From contig JARFPM010000016.1 in assembly GCA_030444405.1 (NCBI GenBank), positions 1-57,285 on the forward strand: a stretch of DNA of 57,285 nucleotides, written 5' to 3'. Shown piece after piece: positions 41,025 to 47,121 of this stretch. A program made the position numbers and the translations under genes. Positions within the stretch are counted from its first letter, which is position 1. Every line of letters starts with the position of its first letter. The notes beneath the pieces were generated by a model that saw nothing but the letters and a program-made list of their open reading frames with translations, did not search any database and was not told the DNA's origin. This DNA is from Nitrospira sp. (lineage in GTDB: Bacteria; Nitrospirota; Nitrospiria; Nitrospirales; Nitrospiraceae).

Positions 41025-42515
41025 ATGAAATCCGCTGCCGTTGTCCGTGAACCATTGAACTTGACGGGAGAAACCCTAAGCCTCCTTGCCTGGCGCATTC
41101 CTGATCTTGTTGCCTACCAACACCAATCAGACGAATGGTGGTATGCCCCGCTGGATGACAACCTGCCGCTTATCCGTTTGAACCACACCGGCTTGGACAT
41201 GCTCAAGACGATGAACGGCCATACGACTGTCGGTACGCTCGTTGAGCAATATGGCACGAAGATCTGCGGACCGGACGGGCAACCGGGGTCCTGGCACCTT
41301 GAACGATGGGCCACGCCAAACTATTGCCTCTGCTATTTCGGAACTGACCCGCCAGGAGGTCATCGACACAAAGCCAAGTGGGATATCCTCCTGCAGCAGG
41401 TCCGCGAAGGCTGGTCGGGAAAGGAAGGGTTTGAGGGCGAGGAGCACTTGGAAGAATTTCATCATCACGAGTTGGCCCAAAGCGAAGAAGATGACCGTCA
41501 TTTTGACCTGATCGAAACCACCGTCTCCCATCTCTTCCGTGAGCCAAGCGAAGCATTGAGCGGCTTGACCTACGGGCGCCTCCTCATGCGGCAACTACGT
41601 CGACTCGGCTGGTTCAATCCCAAGCCCAAGGTCCTCCTGGAAATCGGCGGCGGCCTCGGTTACGTCGCGCAGGAGCTAGGCAAGGACCTGTTGCCCTTCG
41701 AAAAGCAGGGCATCACATACCTGTCGCTCGACATCACACACCCGTTCCTCAACCTTCAAGTCACGCGAGCCAAAGCCGGTGGTTGGAATGTCGCCAGCAC
41801 CAGGGCCAATGCCGAATCGCTCCCGTTGGCCGATCACTCCATCGATCTCGTGATCGACAACGAAAACATGGCGGACATGACACCCGTGCAACTGAGTAGA
41901 AACGAGCTGACGTGCGGGGTCGGAGAGACGGGACAACACCAAGAAGCACTGGATTGGATCAGGCGGCTTCGCCTCCCGATCGAACGCGACCCGCCTGAAT
42001 CGGTGATCTTTAACTTAGGCCCAATTCGTTTTGTCGCCGAGTTGTGGCGAGTGCTCAAGCCGGGTGGCCGAGCCTTTCTTACCGAGTTCGGCATAGAGAA
42101 AGGATGGCCTGCACCCGTGAAGCTACCGGGACATACAGAATACGAGGTCCAATACAGCCACCTGCGGCAAGCGGTCCGCTGGCTCGGTTTTCAAGAGCGG
42201 TATCTTTCTCTTCCGCAATTCCTGGGACTCAAACCGGACACGAAAGTCCTCTGCACCGGCGCCACCTATACCATCCAGCGATTCTGTCAGGCCATCAACA
42301 AACCCTTCGCCGTGCGCGCCTATACCGAGAAGGAATTGCAGCAGGCCTTGGGTGATATGCTCCCAAAACTTCAAGGTCTCCACTATCACGACCTCGCCGA
42401 TCCCGCCTGGTTCGGCCTCCAAGACTTCAAAGTGCTGTTGCTGGAAAAACCCGGCGGCGCCCCGAAAGCCCAATTCACCGAGAACCAAGGCTATCGGTGG
42501 TATTTGCAGAAGTAG
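41025..42515 (+). CDS. SAM methyltransferase with N-terminal PqqD-like domain
   Basis: A 496-residue protein with two recognisable parts. Residues about 20-80 resemble a PqqD-type domain (LIRLNHTGLDMLKTMNGHTTVGTLVEQYG), the fold that serves as leader-peptide recognition element in RiPP pathways. Residues about 200-430 form a class I methyltransferase (VLLEIGGGLGYVAQEL, LSLDITHPFL, ANAESLPLADHSIDLVIDNENM, LKPGGRAFLTEFGIEKGW). Between them is a spacer with a Glu/His-rich region. No precursor peptide or radical-SAM gene is seen nearby. I infer a modification enzyme acting on a peptide or protein; the target is unknown. Confidence 0.82.
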   Translation: MKSAAVVREPLNLTGETLSLLAWRIPDLVAYQHQSDEWWYAPLDDNLPLIRLNHTGLDMLKTMNGHTTVGTLVEQYGTKICGPDGQPGSWHLERWATPNYCLCYFGTDPPGGHRHKAKWDILLQQVREGWSGKEGFEGEEHLEEFHHHELAQSEEDDRHFDLIETTVSHLFREPSEALSGLTYGRLLMRQLRRLGWFNPKPKVLLEIGGGLGYVAQELGKDLLPFEKQGITYLSLDITHPFLNLQVTRAKAGGWNVASTRANAESLPLADHSIDLVIDNENMADMTPVQLSRNELTCGVGETGQHQEALDWIRRLRLPIERDPPESVIFNLGPIRFVAELWRVLKPGGRAFLTEFGIEKGWPAPVKLPGHTEYEVQYSHLRQAVRWLGFQERYLSLPQFLGLKPDTKVLCTGATYTIQRFCQAINKPFAVRAYTEKELQQALGDMLPKLQGLHYHDLADPAWFGLQDFKVLLLEKPGGAPKAQFTENQGYRWYLQK

Positions 42516-42526
42516 GACTTTTTCTT

Positions 42527-44059
42527 TCACCGGTACTTTTGCTGAAAGATCGCTTGAAACTTCTGAACCGTTTCTAGAAACCATGCGAACCCGCTTCTGT
42601 GAAGATCCAGCTCATCATCTGAAATAGCAAGTTCGGCTGCAATCTTTGGATGCGTAATGCGATGCCTCAAATCTAGCGAGCGTCTCAACAGTGCCCAGCC
42701 TTGATTGCCGAAATCTGGAGTCCATTCAAGCTCGAACTTAGAAGTCGCAATTTTAAGCGCTTCCTTGAGATTCTCATGAGTACTCGCACGCACATCCTCC
42801 CGCTTTACACGACCGCTGTCGTCACCTAGCATTAGAACTTCGGATAGCAACTTGTGTTCGGATGAAGTAAGACTCCTTCCTCCTAACTCACAGGCACGAA
42901 GAGTAAATTGCTTCAAGCAAAAAGCCTCGCCCTCGATCAATGCCCAGCAAGCGCGCACAAACATCCGACGAAAAGGTTGGCTAGACCAGTCATCTTTGTA
43001 TGCATCCACAAGACTTTCGATGTCCCTAGATAAAAGGTTAGACACCTCGGACCACTCGTTGAGCACTTTTCCTAAATTGTGCGCATAGGCTGGTAGGCCT
43101 TGGATTGCAACATCATCCACACTGCTACTGCGCATCGTCAACTCTATCAATACTCCTTCCCTCAATCCCAAATCGCTCACCAGACATTGTTCCTCGCCCA
43201 ACGTCTCCATAATCGTTTGGATGATGAGCGCTCCGGCGGCGATAACGTCTTCGCGGTTTTTCTCCAGACCAGGCAGGCCGACTCGCTCAGCCTTTGTCCT
43301 AGTGAGCAGTGTGTACTCCAACTCTCGGATGGTTTCCAGCTTCAGCACATAGTTATGAATTCGCGCCGGCTCATAGGTCGGAAGTTTCTGGGCCATGGCC
43401 GCGAGGGATGTGATCGTGCCGGCGGTGCCGACGAACGTCGCCTGCCGATAGTCGCCCATCTTAGCAACGACTGCGTTAGTTTCTCGAGTCACCCACTCGC
43501 GCGCCTGGCGCACTTCCTCATCGGTTGGTGGGTCGTGACGCAACAGCCGCTCGCAGAGGCGGACCACTCCAATATCGATTGAGCGGGTGACAGGTTTCTG
43601 TCCCGGACGATCTAGGATGAATTCAGTACTGCCACCACCGATATCTAACGCAAGGATATCCGTCACCCCGGTAGGCAAGCCGGAACGAATGCCGAGCAAG
43701 GTCCGCCGGGCTTCTTCCTCGCCTGAGATGACCTCGACCTCAAACCCGGCTTCTCGTTTAACCCGCTCAAGAAACTCATCTCGATTCGCAGCGTCTCGGG
43801 TAGCGCTTGTCGCCACGACCGAGGTGGCTTCGACATGATAGCTATTGATGACATTCCGCCATTCTTGGAGACAGGCAATAACCCGATCCATTGCGACTGG
43901 ACCCAGTCGTTTAGTCTGATCGACGCCCTCGCCCAAGCGGAGGATGCGTCGTTCAGATCGAAGTTCTTTGAGAGGCTGTCCTGGGGCCAGATCTGCGATC
44001 AACAAACGACAGGTGAGGGTTCCGATATCGATGCCGGCCAATCGGCGCGGCTCGGTCAT
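42527..44059 (-). CDS. Ppx/GppA phosphatase with C-terminal HEPN-like extension
   Basis: A 510-residue protein. Residues 1-310 are a typical exopolyphosphatase/guanosine-pentaphosphatase ASKHA domain: GIDIGTLTCRLLIAD, VVATSATRDAANRDEF, EVISGEEEARRTLLGI, LALDIGGGSTEFI, FVGTAGTITSLAA and ERVGLPGLEKNREDVI. The usual C-terminal HD domain is missing. Instead residues about 335-505 form a helical domain of a family I know from stand-alone proteins (RRMFVRACWALIEGEAF, ENLKEALKIA, DLRHRITHPKIAAELAISDDEL), with an R-x4-H motif (Arg465-His470) as in HEPN ribonucleases. Rough base counts show lower G+C in the tail than in the front. It overlaps a small coiled-coil gene by four bases. See findings. Confidence 0.87.
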   Translation of the reverse strand: MTEPRRLAGIDIGTLTCRLLIADLAPGQPLKELRSERRILRLGEGVDQTKRLGPVAMDRVIACLQEWRNVINSYHVEATSVVATSATRDAANRDEFLERVKREAGFEVEVISGEEEARRTLLGIRSGLPTGVTDILALDIGGGSTEFILDRPGQKPVTRSIDIGVVRLCERLLRHDPPTDEEVRQAREWVTRETNAVVAKMGDYRQATFVGTAGTITSLAAMAQKLPTYEPARIHNYVLKLETIRELEYTLLTRTKAERVGLPGLEKNREDVIAAGALIIQTIMETLGEEQCLVSDLGLREGVLIELTMRSSSVDDVAIQGLPAYAHNLGKVLNEWSEVSNLLSRDIESLVDAYKDDWSSQPFRRMFVRACWALIEGEAFCLKQFTLRACELGGRSLTSSEHKLLSEVLMLGDDSGRVKREDVRASTHENLKEALKIATSKFELEWTPDFGNQGWALLRRSLDLRHRITHPKIAAELAISDDELDLHRSGFAWFLETVQKFQAIFQQKYR

Positions 44060-44379
44060 TGCTCGTTCCGAATCTCTTCCATTTCGGCTTCCAATTTCTT
44101 CTGCGACTCCTTGAGCACCTCAACCTCTTTGACGAGACGCACGATCTCGGCATCGTACACAACACGCTCTGCCGTTTCGCCCCGCTCCTTCATGTCGACG
44201 GCCCGCTCGCCGATGTCTTTGTACAGATCGGAGAGTTGCTGGTCTATTTTGCGAAGTTCCAACCTCATGCGGAGCAGCTCAGTCTCTTCCAGAGCACGCC
44301 CTGCTGCATGGACGGTCCCCAAACGCAGTGTGGCGATGCCTGCTCGCAAATCATGTTTCAATCGCTGCAACAAGCCCAT
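44056..44379 (-). CDS. small coiled-coil protein preceding the Ppx/GppA gene
   Basis: A 107-residue helical protein starting MGLLQRLKHDLRAGIATLRLG, with a long coiled coil (ALEETELLRMRLELRKIDQQLSDLY... and a C-terminal EVLKESQKKLEAEMEEIRNE). It has an N-terminal amphipathic segment that might touch membranes or DNA. The start at 44379 is chosen because AAGGAAG lies upstream; the longer frame runs into an inverted repeat. It ends in a four-base ATGA overlap with the Ppx/GppA gene, so the two are coupled. No family recognised. Confidence 0.72.
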   Translation of the reverse strand: MGLLQRLKHDLRAGIATLRLGTVHAAGRALEETELLRMRLELRKIDQQLSDLYKDIGERAVDMKERGETAERVVYDAEIVRLVKEVEVLKESQKKLEAEMEEIRNEQ

Positions 44380-44408
44380 ATCTTTCTTCTTCCTTCCACA
44401 CCCACTAT

Positions 44409-44544
44409 GGTTCAGTGAATCGACATTGTGGGTGGCACCGATCATGGGAGCCCATCCGTCCGCAGCGGGGTCTCTGCACCGGGCGGGGTGCGAGGACGGC
44501 AGAGCTGGTCGGCGACAGGACCCACAATGTCAGCTCACTGAACC
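44409..44544. repeat. 25-base inverted repeat at the recG 3' end
   Basis: The left arm (44409-44433, GGTTCAGTGA...ACATTGTGGGT) and right arm (44520-44544) are reverse complements in 22 of 25 positions, separated by 86 bases that contain a further small stem (GCACC/GGTGC). The right arm encodes the last codons and stop of recG. It may be a cruciform or an old mobile element of the MITE type. Confidence 0.7.
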
Positions 44545-47121
44545 CAACTCCAACTTTTTCTCCCACTTCCGTAGCATCGCTTCACGCAACCCTTGATGGG
44601 CAGGCTCTTTCAATCCCGGGTCCGATTTCAACAGCGAAAAGGCCTCCTGCCTGGCTTGCTGCAACAGGTCACCGTCTCGCACCAGATTCGCGACACGAAA
44701 TTCCGGCATCCCCCATTGGCGCAAGCCAAAGAACTCTCCAGGCCCTCTGATCCGCAAATCGTCCTCGGCAATCACAAATCCGTCGTTTGACCGGACAAGC
44801 GCCTCCAGCCGTTCCCTTGCCGTAGACAGGGACCCTTCACTTGTCATCGAACGTCTTCCCAACTGCGTCCTTCCCCGCCCCAGATTCTGAGCCATCAAGA
44901 GGCAATAGGATTGCTGGTTGCTCCGCCCCACCCGTCCGCGCAATTGATGCAGTTGCGCGAGGCCAAACCGCTCGGCATGTTCGATCAAGATAACGGTCGC
45001 ATTCTGCACATCAACTCCGACTTCGATCACCGTGGTCGCGACCAACACCTGGATCGTTCCGGCCTTGAAGTCGGCCATCACCGCTTCTTTTTCGGCGGCT
45101 TTCATGCGCCCGTGCAGCAGGCCGACACGGAATTCGGACAATTCCCCGCTCTGCAACTGTTCGGCTCCCTGAATCGCTGCCTGGAGATCGGTCTTTTCCG
45201 ATTCTTCCACCAACGGATAGACCACGTACGCTTGCCTGTCGGCACGCAATTCATCGCGCACAATTTGATAGGCACGCCGTCGCTGCGCGTCATGAAAAAG
45301 AAATGTTCGCACTGGCTTTCGTCCAGGTGGCAGTATATCAATCACCGATACGTCAAGGTCACCATACACCGTCATCGCCAATGTCCGGGGAATGGGCGTG
45401 GCCGTCAAAACAAGCACGTCCGGCTTGTAGCCCTTGTCGATCAGGGTCTTTCGCTGCAGGACACCGAACTTGTGCTGCTCATCAACCACCGCCAACCCCA
45501 AGTTCTTGAATCTCACCCCCTGTTGAATGAGGGAATGAGTTCCGATCGCCACTTGAACGTCACCGGATGCCAGCCGCTCAACCTGGGCCTTTTTCACCGT
45601 GGCTCTCTCTCCCCCACGCATGAGAATCGTGCGAAGTCCTAGGGCCTGCAACGTTCCGGAAAGGTTTCGATAGTGCTGCTCCGCTAGAATCTCGGTCGGC
45701 GCCATCAGGGCGGCCTGATAGCCTGAACCACAGGCCATCACCAGTGCATGCAAGGCGACTGCCGTTTTCCCTGACCCCACATCGCCTTGCACCAGACGAT
45801 TCATGGGCCGCGGCGAAATCATGTCCCGAAATATTTCGCGAACGACTCGATCCTGTGCCGTCGTGAGACGAAACGGCAAGAGAGGACCGAGCTTTTCCAA
45901 AAGAGGTGTCCGCGGGTTGAACCGCAATTCCTTCGGCTCTTCATGCACCGATCGATGCCTGGTCGCTAACGCAAGTTGGAGCAGCAGGAACTCCTCGAAG
46001 GCCAATCGTCGATGCGCCGATGTCTTCCCTCGTTCCAGGAGCTGAAGATCGGTACCGGTCTTGGGAAAATGAATATCGTGGAAGGCTTCATAAATTGGGA
46101 TCAGGCGCTGTCGCGCTCGAAGGGGCACAGGCAAATGGTCAAGGAGCTCAATCCCATGGTCCGCCAATAGATTCTTCACCAACACCCGCATCTGGCGTGA
46201 GGTCCATCCTTTGGTCTCGTGATAGATCGGAACAATTCGACCGACATGTAGCATCGATTCGGTATCTTCTCCGATGATTTCATATTGCGCCACATCCATT
46301 CCCGGGACCATCCATCCTTGTCGATCTGAGAGTACCCGCCCGCTCATCATCACGCGAGTCCCAACCGTAAGCATCTCCTCCAAATACGGTTGATTGAAAA
46401 ACACAACCTGCATTCGACCAGACTGATCTTCGACGCCGACTTCCACTACACTCAACCGCCGCTTTCTTGTCCGTTTCACCTCGCATTTTCTGACCACCCC
46501 ACAAATCGAGGCAATCATACCCGGAACGAGATTTCCGATCGGTGTCATGACCGAACGGTCCTCGTAGCGCCACGGGATGGTCCAGAGCGCATCCTCCACC
46601 GTCGCGATATGCAATCGTTGCAAGACATCGGTGCGCTTCGGCCCCACGCCTTTGACGAATCGGACCGGAAGATTCCAGAGATCGGATCTGCCGGCACTCG
46701 TCACTTCGGAGTTACAGGAGGCTTGCGTCGGCGAATCTTTCAGCCGAATGAGCTTCTGTTGATCAACGGCTCGAAGCGCCTTAATGAGCAACGCAGCCGC
46801 CTGCAATCGTCGACGTTGCTCATCGAAGGGGAGCGTCGGTTGAAAATCGATGAAGAGGTCCCGCAATGATATCAGGCGGGCTTCAATGGCCTTGGGGTAA
46901 ACATCTTGGCGAAGGGCAGACAAGACTTGTGACGAGATGAATGACCTCAGATTTGTGACGGCCCTGAGATGGGCACAATCATCTCGGCTCGCAAACTCGA
47001 TTGGTCGCGCTATTCGGTCCAACCACTCCTGAAACGGCGTGTGCGGACTCGATTCGGTGGGAGCCTGCATACGGGAATAGATCGTAGCACAGCATCCCTC
47101 GGCGCTCAATGAACCAGACAA
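44530..47121 (-). CDS. recG: ATP-dependent DNA helicase RecG
   Basis: RecG, 863 residues, which reverses stalled replication forks and processes branched DNA. Seen: an N-terminal extension of about 130 residues with low similarity, a wedge OB-fold domain (LWTIPWRYEDRSVMTPI...), and the helicase motifs MNRLVQGDVGSGKTAVAL, LMAPTEILAEQHY, VVDEQHKFGV, VLTATPIPRTLAMT, LLHGRMKAAEK, VATTVIEVGVDVQNA and QLRGRVGRS, ending in a RecG-type tail. Some length may be an N-terminal extension found in other Nitrospira-like bacteria. The stop lies inside an inverted repeat. Confidence 0.96.
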   Translation of the reverse strand: MSGSLSAEGCCATIYSRMQAPTESSPHTPFQEWLDRIARPIEFASRDDCAHLRAVTNLRSFISSQVLSALRQDVYPKAIEARLISLRDLFIDFQPTLPFDEQRRRLQAAALLIKALRAVDQQKLIRLKDSPTQASCNSEVTSAGRSDLWNLPVRFVKGVGPKRTDVLQRLHIATVEDALWTIPWRYEDRSVMTPIGNLVPGMIASICGVVRKCEVKRTRKRRLSVVEVGVEDQSGRMQVVFFNQPYLEEMLTVGTRVMMSGRVLSDRQGWMVPGMDVAQYEIIGEDTESMLHVGRIVPIYHETKGWTSRQMRVLVKNLLADHGIELLDHLPVPLRARQRLIPIYEAFHDIHFPKTGTDLQLLERGKTSAHRRLAFEEFLLLQLALATRHRSVHEEPKELRFNPRTPLLEKLGPLLPFRLTTAQDRVVREIFRDMISPRPMNRLVQGDVGSGKTAVALHALVMACGSGYQAALMAPTEILAEQHYRNLSGTLQALGLRTILMRGGERATVKKAQVERLASGDVQVAIGTHSLIQQGVRFKNLGLAVVDEQHKFGVLQRKTLIDKGYKPDVLVLTATPIPRTLAMTVYGDLDVSVIDILPPGRKPVRTFLFHDAQRRRAYQIVRDELRADRQAYVVYPLVEESEKTDLQAAIQGAEQLQSGELSEFRVGLLHGRMKAAEKEAVMADFKAGTIQVLVATTVIEVGVDVQNATVILIEHAERFGLAQLHQLRGRVGRSNQQSYCLLMAQNLGRGRTQLGRRSMTSEGSLSTARERLEALVRSNDGFVIAEDDLRIRGPGEFFGLRQWGMPEFRVANLVRDGDLLQQARQEAFSLLKSDPGLKEPAHQGLREAMLRKWEKKLELGSVS

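Follow-up and report, generated by a model that had tools for sequence, protein, structure and literature searches.

A Ppx/GppA phosphatase fused in frame to a probable HEPN-type tail at a gene end that collects toxin and defence genes

HEPN domains share the motif R-x4-6-H, in which a polar residue (N, D or H) follows the arginine (PMC3710099). The motif stands at the end of helix 3, helix 2 carries an acidic residue, and inserts occur between helices 2 and 3 (PMC3710099). The toxins of the HEPN-MNT (HepT-MntA) toxin-antitoxin systems have this fold. HEPN endoribonucleases are metal-independent and depend on the R and the H of the motif. The Ppx/GppA phosphatases come in a short form, e.g. 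the exopolyphosphatase 1t6d, and in a long form with a C-terminal HD domain, e.g. 1u6z. The HEPN survey (PMC3710099) does not mention a Ppx-HEPN arrangement, with no match for polyphosph or GppA. Our analysis suggests that the two are joined at the locus described here.

The window, i.e. the whole stretch of 57,285 nucleotides that was analysed, belongs to contig 85 in the draft genome, 3.46 Mb in size, of a Nitrospira-type bacterium (G000). The minus-strand open reading frame at 42527-44059 starts with ATG and specifies 510 amino acids without an internal stop; its strand and coordinates were verified. The Pfam Ppx-GppA match covers residues 21-307 (E 1.5e-66), and the sequence has the segments DIGT, SGEEEA and LDIGGGSTE, in keeping with the phosphate-binding motifs and acidic catalytic residues of the Ppx/GppA family. 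In a sequence search of the PDB, the Ppx chains align only up to ~residue 320. The final residues of the Ppx module, GLREGVLI[DEN]L, are common to the relatives, and a ppx ortholog at E<=1e-60 was found in 144 of the 175 genomes of the bacterial family. A second Ppx paralog is encoded elsewhere in the genome as a 520-aa open frame (G000:C134). Judged by its length it is likely a long-form Ppx, and its presence may have freed the short one. The tail differs from the front in composition: hand counts in the first-pass annotation had given ~48% and ~58% G+C for the two parts, close to the measured 48.1% and 57.0%. The corresponding GC3 values are 48% and 61%, and a 300-base G+C profile drops to 48% across the tail. 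The features of the locus are collected in Table 1.

Table 1. Coordinates of the features in and around the fused gene
Feature	Position	Strand	Basis or remark
Small coiled-coil gene	44056..44445	-	overlaps ppx start by 4 bp
recG	44530..47121	-	upstream, co-directional; Pfam RecG wedge, DEAD, Helicase_C
Ppx/GppA phosphatase module, residues 1-310	43130..44059	-	Pfam PF02541 E 1.5e-66; PDB exopolyphosphatases 1t6d/2j4r
Linker, residues 311-320	43100..43129	-	takes the place of the ppx stop and spacer, and of the ribosome site and start codon, seen in the sister genus (G451, G238 junctions)
HEPN-like tail, residues 321-510	42530..43099	-	AlphaFold2, Foldseek/VIA-align HEPN matches, dN/dS 0.14 vs G003
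Arg365, Arg369, Glu376 of second long helix	42932..42967	-	probable active-site support
R-x4-H motif RHRITH, Arg465 to His470, predicted RNase active site	42650-42667	-	conservation; helix-end position as in HEPN RNases (PMC3710099)
Methyltransferase-like gene	41025..42515	+	convergent, bounds ppx 3' hotspot; Pfam Methyltransf_11; 11 bp from fused stop

The tail has no match above threshold in Pfam, NCBIfam or PADLOC, and a sequence profile of it gave only chance matches against the PDB. It had been judged from the sequence not to be the HD domain usual for long Ppx proteins, and we found the same: neither an HD nor a Ppx C-terminal domain was matched in it by Pfam or by the PDB sequence search. 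The AlphaFold2 model of the tail (210 residues, 37-sequence alignment) has a mean pLDDT of 89.5 and a pTM of 0.82. Its elements are, in order, helices 21-53 and 61-93, a short helix, a hairpin of strands at 108-122, a further helix, and helices 153-169 and 181-209. The model shows a two-hairpin helical core with an insert between helices 2 and 3. The R-x4-H (model R165-H170) falls at the end of helix 153-169, the third core helix of the model, and at the start of a loop. Its sequence RHRITH has a polar residue after the arginine, and E376 (model E76) is the acidic residue of helix 2. The usual HEPN spacing Ex3[KR] in helix 2 was not seen in the tail.

Structure comparisons point the same way. 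The top match of Foldseek against the PDB is a HEPN toxin, with a best E of 0.1 that falls short of significance; among the best 13 rows, 6 are HEPN toxin or HEPN-MNT chains, with probability 0.77-0.97. In VIA-align, ranks 3-15 are mostly HEPN-superfamily proteins while two designed proteins rank higher; the HEPN matches have Z 7.7-8.9 and rmsd 3.4-4.4 over 122-137 residues, and such Z values are reachable by chance in helical bundles. Single members of the tail family also gave sub-threshold Pfam matches to HEPN_RiboL-PSP (5 of 37) and HEPN_Cthe2314. The first-pass annotation had read the gene as a Ppx fused to a HEPN-like domain. The fusion itself stands, by the reading frame and by a second genome (G003), and the tail is very probably a HEPN domain as judged from the model and the structure matches, none of which is significant.

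The R-x4-H motif exceeds what chance would give, because its R and H are invariant in eight of eight homologs that were found without using the motif. The motif conservation was scored on these eight only, since the wider scans for shared stretches, R[HN]R[ILV]THP[KR] or RNRITHPK, themselves select for it. The motif had been noticed earlier in a helical context, and its place at residues 465-470, at the end of a model helix, agrees with this. The positions invariant across the eight sequences are R55, R59, R155, H160, P161 and W183 of the tail, i.e. R365, R369, R465, H470, P471 and W493 of the whole protein. R365 and R369 are also invariant in the 37-sequence alignment, and E376 is conserved there in at least 90%. 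The tail would presumably act as an RNase through R-x4-H. It could instead be a non-catalytic helical domain, HEPN-like or of another fold, that binds RNA or protein and only scaffolds the Ppx. Some HEPN domains are indeed thought to bind RNA without cutting it (PMC3710099), and the fold matches do not reach statistical significance. However, the non-cutting cases have lost the motif, while here the R, the next polar residue and the H are all retained, and we regard a non-catalytic tail as quite unlikely.

A first scan of the genome contigs with the tail alone as the query gave no match, and the phage records searched gave none for the tail family either. Few relatives came from the single-sequence searches, namely those in G003 (80%), in G238 (54%), in three distant members of the phylum, on a Spirosoma plasmid and on a Vibrio replicon. 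The shared-stretch scans added five IMG/VR viral contigs and 35 loci from Bacteroidota, Proteobacteria, Acidobacteriota, one Anaerolineae bacterium and others, bringing the family to ~45 members seen here. The family is one of ~190-220-aa proteins with genes of their own elsewhere, prophages included, and those from the shared-stretch scans are mostly stand-alone with 170-250 residues. The Spirosoma plasmid copy adjoins a gene for the phage-exclusion protein Lit, and the member in Nitrospira sp. RSF6 (G444) is a stand-alone protein of 195 aa. A search for stand-alone homologues near defence genes had been proposed in the first-pass annotation; the stand-alone state was found, and a defence or mobile setting was seen for only some of them, i.e. 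those beside Lit or a SIR2-like gene or on viral contigs.

Other settings of the family were also observed. The SIR2-like gene of RSF6, recognized by eye with no Pfam match, lies directly upstream of the stand-alone member (L104 4840-6495; also L090), and the two could possibly form a two-gene defence unit. The ppx hotspot of another genome, G028, holds a gene similar to it. At 15 loci, mostly of Sphingomonadales, a member is convergent beside gapR (L102, L106-L108, L110-L112, L114, L115, L117, L118, L120-L122, L126), and these copies look more like a fixture of the chromosome than like a mobile toxin. One acidobacterial member (L099 5455-6600) has an extra N-terminal region of ~200 residues that appears HEAT-repeat-like by eye.

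The tail family is present in six of the 175 genomes of the bacterial family, and its fusion to Ppx in two of the 131 with a readable ppx end, i.e. the source genome and G003. The G003 protein has a tail 80% identical to ours and a linker equal in length, and the presence of the fusion in this independent genome excludes an assembly error. According to the first-pass annotation, absence of the fusion from all relatives would have spoken against its reading; a relative does carry it, but at two of 131 genomes the fusion comes close to such absence. No member of the tail family was found near ppx in the 40 loci outside this bacterial family, within which alone the two are linked.

The junction can be read against one sister genus (G451 and G238), in which the tail gene is unfused and starts ~38 bp past the ppx stop, an AGGA lying five or six bases upstream of its ATG; the G238 copy lies close to an assembly gap and the G451 copy close to a contig end. 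Both fused genomes have lost the ppx stop, and the ancestral ATG has become GCA in the source genome and GTG in G003. The simplest reading is a single fused product, since no SD-like site at a usable spacing was found before the in-frame starts of the linker. That the tail is translated on its own, from an internal start, was considered and is unlikely, given this and the loss of the native start in the source genome.

Both halves of the fused protein are under purifying selection, with dN/dS between the two fused genomes of 0.10 for the front and 0.14 for the tail. The dS is 0.83 for the tail and 1.40 for the front, the latter being near saturation, and a tail dS below that of the front would be compatible with a transfer of the tail from one lineage to another. 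The two genomes belong to different subclades of the methyltransferase tree, where G003 pairs with G013, and vertical inheritance of the fusion from a sister pair is thus unsupported. One might suppose that the tail is only a neutral or near-neutral extension, read through from the turnover of genes at this site and without a use of its own when fused. The fusion is rare and patchy, the two carriers are non-sisters, and the contents of the site turn over rapidly, all of which would suit such an origin. Against this, a neutral extension would have decayed, whereas the tail has kept its length, its R-x4-H and its helix-2 residues, and its low dN/dS holds at a high synonymous divergence. We consider such passive read-through very unlikely.

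Toxin-antitoxin and defence genes are gained and lost at the ppx 3' end, which is a hotspot for them. The convergent pair of ppx and methyltransferase genes is also found in the relatives, and the gap between the two ranges from ~0 to 6.5 kb. The ppx gene ends within 34 residues of GLREGVL in 126 of the 131 genomes, with last residues that differ between genomes, and has a tail of 176-386 aa in five. The first downstream genes include those for DUF2971 (nine cases), PHD-like (seven), FRG (three), RES (three), HigB (two) and CAP12/Pycsar TIR (one) proteins, and the hotspot also holds HNH, Polbeta nucleotidyltransferase, DUF4145 and pEK499-type HEPN genes. The small coiled-coil gene on the other side of ppx had been proposed to be coupled to the fusion. 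We found it in 30 of 30 loci of the relatives, with or without a tail on ppx, and therefore do not consider it coupled.

Copies of gene ends occur at the hotspot, those of the methyltransferase 3' end in many genomes and those of the ppx 3' end in five. Across L032-L071, the repeated methyltransferase 3' fragments are cut at points that cluster ~65, 95-110 or 125 nt upstream of the stop; together with the ppx fragments, they mark out a hypervariable island with toxin-antitoxin and defence genes. The ppx fragments begin at varying positions. The recurrence of such fragments led us to consider an integron-like mechanism, with site-specific insertion at the ends of the ppx and methyltransferase genes. 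We rejected it: a conserved junction sequence, searched for as one exact pattern of 15 bases, occurs at most once per genome, and the junction therefore looks inherited rather than like a dispersed recombination site. In homology-facilitated illegitimate recombination (PMC3240628), one side of the incoming DNA is joined by homology and the other illegitimately, and such a process would suit the pattern of gene-end fragments.

Overall, we consider it probable, though well short of certain, that a defence-type HEPN RNase was captured by ppx at this hotspot. Ppx and HEPN would have been joined apparently because the end of the ppx gene keeps receiving toxin and defence genes. The tail family would normally be a separate HEPN gene, an ancestral copy of which settled just downstream of ppx. 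Loss of the ppx stop, and of the ribosome site and ATG of the HEPN gene, would then have left a single reading frame. The fused protein is predicted most likely to keep both a working Ppx phosphatase and a metal-independent R-x4-H HEPN RNase. The latter would cleave RNA when the cell is stressed or attacked by phage, and Ppx would be at least its carrier and expression partner. We infer such a defence or stress role of the tail, and defence is favoured because of the Lit gene in Spirosoma, the SIR2-like gene in RSF6 and the copies on viral contigs.

Several points count against this capture of a defence RNase. It does not explain how an always-active RNase is tolerated without an antitoxin partner: none was seen for the tail, and no MNT nucleotidyltransferase lies beside it, the neighbours being the convergent methyltransferase gene downstream and the coiled-coil gene and recG upstream. 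The non-significant fold matches, the failure of every Pfam HEPN model to pass its cut-off on the tail, the finding of only two fused genomes and the stable copies beside gapR also weigh against it.

Ppx and HEPN seem to have been joined more than once. In a related genus, the Ppx of a single-contig assembly (G194:C1:939928-942900, L167) has a tail that matches the Pfam HEPN family PF05168 with E 5e-5, above the cut-off. Another Ppx tail (G017:C18:20568-29491, L056) resembles the AbiU2 HEPN with E 0.003, below the cut-off, and has the motif RNTVVGH. A further Ppx (G018:C5:364897-373967, L040) continues in frame into an ATP-grasp domain of the sugar-transfer kind (PF14397), which possibly has its own start. 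HEPN is thus found in two or three of the four independent Ppx tails, compared with ~3 of 71 first unfused downstream genes (Fisher p 0.001 with G017 or 0.02 without), in a test that is post hoc, has small counts and sought HEPN harder in the fused tails than in the unfused neighbours. We treat the enrichment as a lead only, because of this late choice of test and unequal search effort.

The lead bears on the idea that the two halves are functionally coupled, i.e. that the HEPN RNase is switched by the Ppx part as this senses or consumes pppGpp or polyphosphate, the fusion being selected as a gated effector. The three separate HEPN-type tails (this family, G194 and, below the cut-off, G017), their excess over the unfused neighbours and the purifying selection on both front and tail would speak for it. 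On the other hand, the excess is subject to the limits just given, the ATP-grasp fusion indicates that non-HEPN genes are captured as well, no member of the tail family lies near ppx in the loci from outside the bacterial family, and our literature search found no Ppx-HEPN link. The first-pass annotation had inferred an alarmone-linked RNase of this sort, possibly a stress or anti-phage effector. We regard such coupling as unlikely. The broader claim, that HEPN tails are repeatedly joined and interchangeable on one conserved Ppx whose phosphatase gates the RNase, making them unreported stress or anti-phage effectors under the control of an alarmone or polyphosphate, is slightly less likely still. 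If the recurrent fusions do reflect coupling, the metabolism of polyphosphate or (p)ppGpp would be tied directly to RNA cleavage.

With capture at the hotspot as the preferred reading, our data add an unnamed family to the probable HEPN domains and a domain architecture without a description in the literature searched. They also suggest that the 3' end of a housekeeping gene can be a place where defence domains are captured.

Compared with the known systems, the front of the protein is closest to the short Ppx/GppA phosphatases: residues 5-309 align with nearly the whole chain of the 315-aa 1t6d, and the protein continues for another ~200 residues where such proteins stop. It resembles the long form (1u6z, 513 aa) in total length and in the N-terminal half, while the C-terminal half is unrelated. 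The tail shares the HEPN fold, by its model, with the toxins of HepT-MntA, which are its closest solved structures, and differs from these systems in having no nucleotidyltransferase partner beside it within the window. Against the HEPN superfamily as surveyed by Anantharaman et al. 2013 (PMC3710099), the tail family differs in having no above-threshold model in Pfam, NCBIfam or PADLOC and in standing here C-terminal to a Ppx. It resembles that superfamily in the helical fold with an insert between helices 2 and 3, in the R-x4-H with its polar residue at the end of helix 3 and the acidic residue of helix 2, and in its small stand-alone genes, some of them in mobile or defence settings.
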